From positions 1 to 39,771 of the forward strand of contig NZ_JDFG01000027.1 in assembly GCF_000565075.1 (NCBI RefSeq): a stretch of DNA of 39,771 nucleotides, read 5' to 3'. Positions 1,306-11,883 of this stretch are shown here, in pieces; the stretch's first letter is position 1, and every line of letters begins with the position of its first letter. A model generated the notes under the pieces. The model saw only the letters and a list, made by a program, of their open reading frames with translations, had not been told where the DNA came from and did no database searches. This DNA is from Atopobium sp. BS2 (lineage in GTDB: Bacteria; Actinomycetota; Coriobacteriia; Coriobacteriales; Atopobiaceae). A program made the translations under genes and the position numbers.

Positions 1306-2592
1306 TTATGCCCCCAAGGTATCGATCGGAATAACATATATCCCATCCGAGCGCCGTCTACGCGCCATCGTCCCTTTACCGAGCAGCACAGCCATAAAGC
1401 TAGGCTTAGGATTTCTTGCTGCAGGATTAGCAGCCACCTTTCTCGCAACTCTTATGAGATTCGCAGCCGCATCTTCTACTTTAGATTCCCCCATCTTGAT
1501 TTCAATGGCTGCCCATCGACCATCTGTCAATTCAATAATGGCGTCAACCTCAAGCCCATCGGCGTCCGCATAATATCGTAAAGATCCCCCATACGACTTA
1601 GGCAAAGCGGAAACGTAAACGGACAAATCATGAATGCAGAGTGACTCAATCAATAAACCAAAAAGCTGTCCGTCTTTAAGTAAGCGTGAAGAGTCGACAC
1701 CTAATAAACTGGCCACGAGAGACGTATCGCAGAAATATCGTTTTGGTTTCGTGCGCAGCCTTGACTTTGACCTGATTGGCGCATCCCAGCCCGAGAGCTC
1801 CTCAATAAAATAGTTGCGTCTAAACTCTTCAAGGTATGAGGATATGGTCCCATCCACCGGAGCTATATTGTCAAAGGCAGCAATATCATCTCTCATGGTA
1901 CCCAGCGTTGCACTCGTTGCTACATTTCGTGCAAGAGATGCAGCTATGCGGCGGGACAGAAGTGGACTTTTCCCCGCGCGAGGCATGCTTACATCAAAAA
2001 GTGCATTAAGATATTCATCGGTAACGGCCCTTGGATCCGCCAATTTTTTTGTTTGAAGAGCCGGCCACCCACCGCGGCATACAATATTGGCTAAATCGGC
2101 GAGATCAATATGAGATTGCGCCGGCTGGAAGGAATCTTCAAAGAGTCCCAAAAGAGATACTGCTCCCGTAGAATCTCCAGTCTCTGCAAGACTCATAGTA
2201 TGCATACGCAACCGTGCAATGCGTCCTGCTCCACTATGTCTTTTTTCATCCTCGGGAGGGGTGGAGGAGCCTGTCAAAATAAACTGTCCCGGCTTATTTG
2301 CACTATCATCAATCCTATGACGTACAATATTCCATATAGCAGGTATATCTTGCCACTCGTCAATAACATGAGGGGTATCACCAACAAGAGCAAGCTGTGG
2401 ATCATCCATATAGATCTGTTCGGATTCATCCACACGTGTCACACTCTCGCCAAATGACTGTGCCGTCCAGGATTTCCCCGACCAACGAGGACCACAAAGT
2501 TCTATACCACCAAAGGTATCCAGAAGGACCTGCACCTGTGAATCAATAATACGAGGAATGTATGTTTCCGGCTTAAACTTTGAATATCTCAT
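1306..2592 (-). CDS. AAA-family ATPase with C-terminal DUF4143 domain
   Basis: A 428-residue protein of the family of AAA ATPases fused to DUF4143, widespread in host-associated bacteria and often multi-copy; its cellular role is not established. The N-terminal domain shows a Walker A motif GPRWSGKS (residues 34-41), a Walker B-like HVIDEWQ (75-81) and a sensor-like FILTGSS. The C-terminal half contains EVDAII followed by AIEIK, the spaced acid...ExK pattern of PD-(D/E)XK nuclease-fold domains, which is typical of DUF4143. The ATG start follows a clear purine-rich ribosome site (GGAAGGGGG). It is alone on its strand between an IS remnant and the AraC gene, and lies just downstream of a cluster of 11-16 base repeats (2654-2738) that may be its operator. 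Role inference (defence, stress or a toxin-antitoxin-like function) is open; nothing here decides it. Confidence 0.85.
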   Translation of the reverse strand: MRYSKFKPETYIPRIIDSQVQVLLDTFGGIELCGPRWSGKSWTAQSFGESVTRVDESEQIYMDDPQLALVGDTPHVIDEWQDIPAIWNIVRHRIDDSANKPGQFILTGSSTPPEDEKRHSGAGRIARLRMHTMSLAETGDSTGAVSLLGLFEDSFQPAQSHIDLADLANIVCRGGWPALQTKKLADPRAVTDEYLNALFDVSMPRAGKSPLLSRRIAASLARNVATSATLGTMRDDIAAFDNIAPVDGTISSYLEEFRRNYFIEELSGWDAPIRSKSRLRTKPKRYFCDTSLVASLLGVDSSRLLKDGQLFGLLIESLCIHDLSVYVSALPKSYGGSLRYYADADGLEVDAIIELTDGRWAAIEIKMGESKVEDAAANLIRVARKVAANPAARNPKPSFMAVLLGKGTMARRRRSDGIYVIPIDTLGA

Positions 2593-2653
2593 AAGACCCC
2601 CTTCCTCGTAAGAACTATTGTAATGCCTGATGATAGCACAAATTCAACTCTTC

Positions 2654-2738
2654 ATTGATGATTTTCGAGGATTTCTATTTATGATTTTCGAGCTAACTCA
2701 ACTATGTTTTTCGAGCCATTACATTGATGATTTTCGAA
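2654..2738. repeat. Four spaced copies of a TGATTTTCGAG-like motif
   Basis: Copies lie at 2654-2669 (ATTGATGATTTTCGAG), 2678-2692 (TTTATGATTTTCGAG), 2702-2715 (CTATGTTTTTCGAG) and 2723-2738 (ATTGATGATTTTCGAA). Start-to-start spacings are 24, 24 and 21 bases, about two helical turns. The cluster fills the gap between the 3' end of the AraC gene and the 5' end of the DUF4143 ATPase, both on the minus strand, so it sits upstream of the ATPase start by roughly 60-145 bases. I infer a multi-site protein-binding region, possibly for autoregulation of the ATPase. It is too small and the spacers too short for a CRISPR array. Confidence 0.7.
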
Positions 2739-10641: not shown

Positions 10642-11883
10642 TTAGCTTAGGACAACGCCGCCAAGCCAGCCCCACCTTGGAGTACTCAAAGCACCAAGCT
10701 GAGAAATCCAAGAACTCAAGCTCTGGCTTCTTACAATACCAGAGAGGCAGTGCCTGACCATGCCGCCACCAATGTAAATGCCAACGTGGCCGTAAATCAG
10801 AGCTGCAGCAGAACCACCAAGGGTTGGAACAGCAATAATCATGCCAGGCTCAATAGCGCTCTGATCAGTAGAGTAGCACCAGGAATAGTACATATCACAA
10901 GCGTTGCCATAGAAGGTGCCAACACCTGCGTTTGAGAAGACATTAGAAACCCAAGCAGCACAGAAGCCAGCACCGGTAGATCCGGTATAGCCTGCAGCAT
11001 TAACAACTGCAGCAGCAGAACCGGAACCAGCAGAAGAGGTTCCTCCTCCGCCACCGCCACCAGAGTAGCTACTACCACCACCGCTGTCGCTTGATGCAGC
11101 AGCACGTTGAGCAGCAACACGCTCTGCCTCCTGCTGAGCGGCAAGAAGTTCAGAATCACGCTGAGCGATAAGCGCTTTAACATTGTCATCAAGATTTGCA
11201 ACAACGTTTGCAGCGTCCGCCTGACGAGCAGAAATATCATTAAGCTGAGACTCCTGAGAAGCACGGAGATTCTCAAGTTCAGCCTTCTTATTCTCTAGCT
11301 CGGTCTTCTCGGACTGAAGAGCAGCCTTATCAGACTCAAGAGCAGCCTTCAGATTCTTAACTTCCTCAATCATCTTCTGATCGGACTCAGAAATCTTATC
11401 GAGGTAGTAAATATTAGAAGTGAGCTCCTCAAAGCTTGCAGAAGAAAGAATCATCTCCAAAGCACCAGCTGGGCCAGCCTTGTAGTTGCTGGACATACGA
11501 GCGCCAAGTTCTTTTCTCTTCTCGGCAATCTGAGTTTCCTTTTCAGAAATCTCTTTCTGCTTAGCATCAATCTGATTCTGCTTATCTGCAATCTGATCAG
11601 AAATAGCGCCAATCTGAGAGTTAGTGTCATTGAGGCTTGCTTGCATGCTAGAGACCTCATTAGAAATCTCATCGAGCAGCTTCTGAGCAGCATCGTAATC
11701 GCTACGAGCAGCATCAATCTGAGCCTGGGTAACACCAAAAGCAGGACGGGTGTTAATCAGAGATGCAGTAACGGCAGCGGCAGCAATGCCCATGCCGGCA
11801 AAAATCTTAAGAGCATCACGACGATTGAAAAGAGCAGCGCTCTGCTCCTCAATGGTTGTGCTTTGCTGTTTCTTTAAACTCAT
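10642..11883 (-). CDS. Tat-exported peptidoglycan hydrolase, coiled coil plus NlpC/P60 or CHAP-like domain
   Basis: A 413-residue secreted protein. The N terminus carries a twin-arginine signal (NRRDALKIFAG, Arg 21-22, then a hydrophobic Ala-rich stretch) with a likely cleavage near residue 50. Residues about 55-255 are a heptad-rich coiled coil (ISDQIADKQNQIDAKQKEIS), then a Gly/Ser linker (about 265-295). A C-terminal cysteine-peptidase-like domain has GFCAAWVSNVF (candidate catalytic Cys) and YGHVGIYIGGG (candidate His). The architecture resembles PcsB/CwlO-type hydrolases that cut peptide cross-links of the wall, with the coiled coil acting as an autoinhibitory or FtsEX-contacting arm in those families. 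The ATG follows AGGAG. It is a single gene with its own terminator. The Tat rather than Sec signal is notable; tatA/B and tatC are in this window. Confidence 0.88.
   Translation of the reverse strand: MSLKKQQSTTIEEQSAALFNRRDALKIFAGMGIAAAAVTASLINTRPAFGVTQAQIDAARSDYDAAQKLLDEISNEVSSMQASLNDTNSQIGAISDQIADKQNQIDAKQKEISEKETQIAEKRKELGARMSSNYKAGPAGALEMILSSASFEELTSNIYYLDKISESDQKMIEEVKNLKAALESDKAALQSEKTELENKKAELENLRASQESQLNDISARQADAANVVANLDDNVKALIAQRDSELLAAQQEAERVAAQRAAASSDSGGGSSYSGGGGGGGTSSAGSGSAAAVVNAAGYTGSTGAGFCAAWVSNVFSNAGVGTFYGNACDMYYSWCYSTDQSAIEPGMIIAVPTLGGSAAALIYGHVGIYIGGGMVRHCLSGIVRSQSLSSWISQLGALSTPRWGWLGGVVLS

Follow-up and report, generated by a model that had tools for sequence, protein, structure and literature searches.

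The closest described system is PDC-S01, a single-gene phage defence candidate of PADLOC. According to the accessible part of the source, about 39,000 loci of PDC-S01 have been counted, which places it among the most frequent candidate prokaryotic defence genes, and anti-phage validation is pending for most PDCs (PMC12988326). A search of open-access papers gave almost nothing on DUF4143 itself. In the accessible portion of that literature, no function, ligand or target of PDC-S01 was found, and no DNA element is described for PDC-S01 or DUF4143; subscription literature and preprints were outside this search, and an earlier report of the array described below is thus possible.

The archaeal STAND/MNS ATPases PABY2304 (2qen) and SSO1545 (2fna) combine an ATPase with a helical or winged-helix part, as the protein studied here is predicted to do. 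Their alignment with it ends before the DUF4143 nuclease-like domain, however, and the identity is 14–15%. In mycobacteria, IniR, for whose AAA+ domain SSO1545 served as the model, binds to the iniBAC promoter and induces it (PMC5760070), and the potato NLR Rx1 binds and deforms DNA (PMC4599002). As far as the accessible text of these two sources goes, both are STAND-related ATPases that bind DNA, but with effector domains different from that of the DUF4143 ATPase; this text shows no direct-repeat array like the one described below. Iterons and the DnaA/Orc boxes of replication origins are similar in another respect: they are short direct repeats about two turns apart, and are read by AAA+/winged-helix initiators.

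The window analysed here is the whole 39,771-nt stretch of Atopobium sp. BS2. It contains a gene for a DUF4143 ATPase with the following parts.

1306–2592, minus strand: DUF4143 ATPase gene, 428 aa (Pfam AAA_14 and DUF4143)
Residues about 1–200: STAND/AAA+ domain (Walker A GK39-40, Walker B DE78-79)
Residues about 208–290: predicted winged helix (AlphaFold2 model)
E348, D350, E364 and K366: DUF4143 PD-(D/E)xK nuclease-like domain

Both Pfam matches are over the gathering scores (AAA_14, 2e-10; DUF4143, 2.7e-26), and the protein matches the PDC-S01 model PDLC04790 of PADLOC at residues 10–388 (E 1.2e-52). The AlphaFold2 model (mean pLDDT 91.4, pTM 0.91) places an ATPase core first, then three helices and two strands with a basic loop (210–287), and then the DUF4143 domain. 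The segment 210–287 is read as a predicted winged helix. The best folds in VIA-align are 2qen (Z 15.2) and 2fna (Z 13.1) at residues 5–298, with NLR/CED-4 proteins ranked after these archaeal STAND ATPases; the list spans mainly residues 3–313. Foldseek matches include Orc1/Cdc6 bound to origin DNA (2qby), DnaA and RuvB. With the full model, Foldseek also gives the CARF nucleases Cdn1 and Card1 at low TM-scores. The protein has the P-loop ATPase core and the winged-helix-type domain of STAND/MNS proteins in a 2qen/2fna-like fold, and its sequence contains the D...ExK catalytic signature of PD-(D/E)xK nucleases. Judged from the model, the ATPase is of the STAND type; a winged helix is predicted in it, and its PD-(D/E)xK motif is intact.

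Directly upstream of this gene lies an array of four boxes. On the plus strand they are of the ATGATTTTCGA type and start at 2658, 2681, 2704 and 2727; the third copy is ATGTTTTTCGA and the others are ATGATTTTCGA. Read on the strand of the gene, the box is CTCGAAAA(TCAT).

2651–2738, minus strand: complete four-box array, pitch 23/23/23 (Tandem Repeats Finder and family statistics)
2727–2738, minus strand: box 1, farthest from the gene, TTCGAAAATCAT (the orthologue L035, 98% identical, has CTCGAAAATCAT)
2704–2715, minus strand: box 2, CTCGAAAAACAT, one mismatch
2681–2692, minus strand: box 3, CTCGAAAATCAT
2658–2669, minus strand: box 4, nearest to the gene, CTCGAAAATCAT; touches a putative promoter at its -35 position; core conserved and spacers diverged in orthologues

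The original prediction had placed four copies of a motif before the DUF4143 ATPase. The four copies are real; the spacing of 24/24/21 given for them was a miscount, as the boxes are exactly 23/23/23 bp apart. Tandem Repeats Finder reports 2651–2737 with a period of 23 and 3.8 copies as the top-scoring array of the window. The window has three occurrences of TTTTCGA-N16-TTTTCGA, all within the array, against none in 100 shuffles. Of TGATTTTCGA, three of the four copies in the genome are in this array, and CTCGAAAA-N15-CTCGAAAA is confined to it within the Atopobium sp. BS2 genome. The ATG of the AAA_14 and DUF4143 gene, at 2592, follows about 65 nt past the array end.

Other repetitive or mobile sequences are present in the window. 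An IS30-family-like transposase remnant, recognised by eye, lies downstream of the DUF4143 gene at 29–1079 and is split over two frames (29–472 and 696–1079). The array was considered as an IS30 end or a transposon repeat, and this was rejected: the remnant is 1.5 kb off, and there are arrays in relatives without such a remnant. Imperfect 21-bp tandem repeats at 11269–11597 are inside a gene for a secreted coiled-coil/CHAP-like protein (10642–11883, minus strand), and are likely heptad repeats.

Arrays are found upstream of DUF4143 genes in several phyla, as the original prediction had proposed to examine. Upstream DNA was available in public genomes for 24 relatives of 98 to 38% identity (from Coriobacteriia, Firmicutes, a PVC-group bacterium and Agrococcus), and nearly all have their own array directly upstream. 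The boxes vary among these relatives: CTCGAAAA, CTCTAAAA, CTCTATTTT, TTGACAAATACGG, CTCGCAATCTGTACA and CAAACTGCGCAA. For statistics, the upstream regions of 143 non-redundant DUF4143 genes, gathered from the order and by a search for relatives, were scored for three in-register blocks, with a cut-off of at least 8 of 12 columns. At least three near-identical in-register boxes are seen in 49 of the 143 DUF4143 genes, versus 1 of 236 neighbour genes at the same loci (Fisher, 1e-22) and 0 of 429 shuffles. A chance tandem repeat is ruled out by these shuffles and neighbour-gene controls. The period is 23 in 44 of the 49 array-positive genes.

When lags from 12 to 60 were scanned, peaks were seen at 23 (44 genes; controls 1), 46 (31; controls 0) and 32–34 (13, 19 and 5; controls 1, 3 and 2) only. 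The arrays with pitch 33 form a class separate from those with pitch 23. A held-out set of 118 genes, taken from Clostridia, Actinomycetes and one PVC-group phylum, has the same peaks: 23 (18 genes), 46 (15), 32 (6) and 33 (12). The third set consists of 15 genes, which come from Bacteroides, Prosthecochloris, Lentilactobacillus, Collinsella, Actinomyces, Mycobacterium plasmids and viral contigs. Of the periods 13–39, 23 is the best for every one of these 15 genes (for one of them as 22 followed by 23), with 2 of the 15 scoring under the cut-off of 8. Array-bearing DUF4143 genes are thus both plasmid-borne and chromosomal. All three sets were gathered by similarity to one family and are related by descent; they cover members from bacteria and viral contigs, in a family that also has numerous archaeal members. 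Across these related sets the box sequence changed completely and the pitch did not, which indicates that the pitch is under constraint.

The pitch follows the protein phylogeny. In a tree of 261 proteins, 91 of whose genes have strong arrays, only 2 changes between pitch 23 and pitch 33 are necessary, compared with at least 18 for shuffled labels. A rare disagreement of pitch and clade is L131, where two divergent DUF4143 genes share one 33-pitch array that lies between them. Arrays preselected for a period of 22–24 have 169 consecutive spacings of exactly 23, and those preselected for 32–34 have 60 of exactly 33. Both classes have a conserved block of about 13 bp, which means that an array of the 33 class differs by about 10 bp of extra spacer. 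In the tested sample, the best PADLOC model is PDLC04790 for five 23-class proteins, and PDLC04792 and PDLC04786 for the one 33-class protein.

The box itself can be wholly different between family members. Two paralogues in the genome of the window have unrelated boxes, GCCAACTGCCGTGG with pitch 23 (L063, C29) and TGTAAAAAACGC with pitch 33 (L062, C28). Box similarity falls with protein distance (Mantel, 0/500 permutations), and in a regression on domain distances the motif change tracks the winged helix no better than the nuclease domain. Between the window and its orthologue in another genus (L036, 85% protein identity), 30 of 32 positions match in the 8-bp cores and 28 of 60 in the spacers. 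In some arrays (L053, L051, L046 and L106), the AAAA core of the box is turned to TTTT (TCGATTTT beside TCGAAAAT). These flips suggest that the core is read as an A/T-rich shape rather than as exact bases. A pitch fixed by clade together with a freely drifting box provides a natural experiment on how STAND ATPases are spaced on DNA.

Near-helical phasing, with proteins bound on one face of the DNA, had been suggested for the array. The distances do not agree with this: 23 bp corresponds to 2.19 turns and 33 bp to 3.14 turns, so the sites spiral round the helix. Successive sites are turned by about 70 degrees at the 23-bp pitch and by about 50 degrees at the 33-bp pitch. Spiralling sites of this kind are less suited to flat binding on one face than to underwound DNA or an oligomer of helical shape.

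No conserved neighbour gene or operon partner accompanies the DUF4143 genes, the largest neighbour cluster covering 5 of about 150 loci. As no neighbour gene family recurs, the ATPase is the likely and simplest reader of the array. A pitch that is specific to the clade and a winged helix in the structural model point to the same likely reader. It is rather probable that the array is a private operator read by the ATPase itself, with autorepression as the probable effect. Another candidate is a host DNA-binding protein, such as the adjacent AraC protein or a global regulator, that controls the ATPase gene through the array. In the window an AraC gene is directly upstream, and the direct repeats to which AraC proteins bind are spaced by about 21 bp. 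However, an AraC gene is found only at the window, at the orthologue in G001 and at one paralogous locus, while DUF4143 genes of several phyla, plasmid-borne ones among them, have arrays. Besides, a box that differs from gene to gene and a pitch that follows the DUF4143 tree, next to no conserved neighbour, argue against any host regulator. The reading as an AraC operator was rejected on the ground of these unconserved neighbours, and control by another host protein is very unlikely.

The same features separate the array from iterons and origin boxes. It lies on the promoter side of an ATPase-nuclease gene that stands alone, its box changes from gene to gene, and its pitch of 23 or 33 is a character of the clade. 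Solitary chromosomal genes without conserved neighbours argue against an iteron or replication origin.

A putative promoter can be placed next to box 4.

2630–2635, minus strand: putative -10 hexamer TATCAT, kept in the orthologues L035 and L036 and in the gene-less locus L300
2653–2658, minus strand: -35 position matching TATCAT, adjoining box 4

A consensus promoter scan of the window gave no promoter at the array. In L056–L058, a TTGACA-like -35 element lies inside the last box, and at the Bacteroides loci a -33/-7 promoter is seemingly downstream of the array. Over the family, -10 enrichment downstream of the arrays is weak in the 23 class (24/75 versus 20% in shuffles, p=0.01) and no -10 signal is seen in the 33 class; no sharp constant distance from the array to the -10 was found across the family. 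That the array is in an operator position, on the promoter side near the start codon, is well supported. Repression rather than activation by the complex on the array is a guess.

The array could instead act as RNA in the 5' leader, where the protein, as a nuclease or an ATPase, would bind the transcript of its own gene. The boxes are always oriented with the gene and near its start, in line with this, but the array would go untranscribed at the Bacteroides loci, where the promoter is downstream, and in L056–L058, where the -35 is inside the last box. The fold also carries a winged helix of the DNA type, as predicted. Action as RNA is therefore highly improbable.

For the private operator, the following mechanism can be considered. 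The array with its position, its clade-specific pitch and its divergent boxes, the lack of a partner gene and the domain architecture are observed; we infer that the ATPase binds the array, forms an oligomer there and thereby represses the gene. Each protomer would recognise one box of about 13 bp by its winged-helix domain, and neighbouring protomers would touch through the STAND/AAA+ core, which would set the pitch at 23 bp or, in the other half of the family, at 33 bp with one more helical turn. Three or four protomers would assemble on the promoter-proximal DNA. This assembly would most likely repress the own promoter, because the last box is at or against the -35 region. Repression would keep a potentially harmful ATPase-nuclease low, and a trigger or a nucleotide change would disassemble or convert the complex.

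The private address suggests that each protein reads and regulates itself. Every member would have a readable DNA address, and a short piece of synthetic DNA from the upstream region of its own gene is enough to test it. The genomes G010, G015, G018, G036, G056 and G101 contain 14 to 20 DUF4143 genes in 2–3.6 Mb, which implies many private arrays within one cell.

Arrays can be parted from their genes. Among 296 Coriobacteriia genomes, CTCGAAAA-N15-CTCGAAAA finds 29 arrays in 26 genomes, and the reversed control finds 1. The loci of 26 arrays were read: 14 have a full-length DUF4143 gene, 5 a broken or internally deleted one and 6 none, and one is at a contig end. The box is in gene orientation at all 14 loci with the full-length gene. 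The motif thus has no random distribution: 19 of the 25 judged arrays adjoin an intact or broken DUF4143 gene, in agreement with the earlier idea of a dedicated recognition array beside such a gene. Neither of the findings that would have refuted this idea, absence of the cluster upstream of other DUF4143 genes or random occurrence, was made. The six gene-less arrays, which simple autoregulation does not need, are explained by recent gene loss. Two species of the genus of the window have the same locus minus most or all of the gene, with the array sequence kept. In L300 and L336 (G004) the gene is lost with a junction near the 7-bp repeat CGTAAGA, which in the window is present at both edges. 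In L337 (G003) most of the gene is gone. In both genomes the array sequence and the flank are still there.

The frequent loss or breakage of the gene beside a kept array suggests that the gene is costly. This could be expected if the array were not an operator but a platform of the effector, which templates or sequesters a resistosome-like STAND oligomer and keeps the nuclease off until it is released or activated by infection or DNA stress. The STAND fold is related to resistosomes and CED-4, the pitch is strict over multiple copies, and PADLOC lists the family as a phage defence candidate. The lysine of Walker A and the DE of Walker B are present in nearly all of the 261 family members, and Walker and nuclease residues are kept together in 36/36 of the 33-class and 77/81 of the 23-class proteins; the D350, E364 and K366 signature shows these same counts, with 119/144 in the others. 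On the other hand, the nuclease activity is a prediction from the motif, and the array is always on the promoter side near the start codon, for which regulation is a simpler account. A platform in place of an operator is rather unlikely. It can also be speculated that DUF4143/PDC-S01 forms a DNA-templated STAND oligomer of fixed pitch, with each protomer turned by about 70 or 50 degrees, on the array of its own gene, which would gate the nuclease beyond promoter occlusion and make it an NLR-like sensor with its own promoter as resting or activation scaffold; this is a tentative and somewhat doubtful extension.

Membership among phage defence candidates could also mean that the array is a target sequence derived from invaders or phages, either a decoy or a CRISPR-like memory. 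Two box sequences were searched as three-box arrays in 2.9 million viral contigs: CTCGAAAA gave one low-complexity match (L341) and CTCTAAAA gave none. The boxes within an array are near-identical, unlike spacers. As arrays of these two boxes are nearly absent from the viral contigs, this origin was rejected and is extremely unlikely.

Arrays of pitch 23 or 33 are absent from about half of the sampled DUF4143 genes. In the same region, an inverted repeat is seen in 30 of 66 array-less genes versus 25 of 233 controls, and some array-less genes are also without a clear inverted repeat. Under autorepression by the ATPase, the inverted repeat of the array-less branches would be the expected operator of a dimer. 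The three operator layouts (23, 33 and inverted) offer a means of sorting the family and of predicting which operator a new member has. One gene clade (L021, L084, L088, L093 and L025) has a common TACGTCCTTATTT-like upstream box, in several members as an inverted pair. In L093 this box is also present in further direct copies, resulting in a mixed operator layout.
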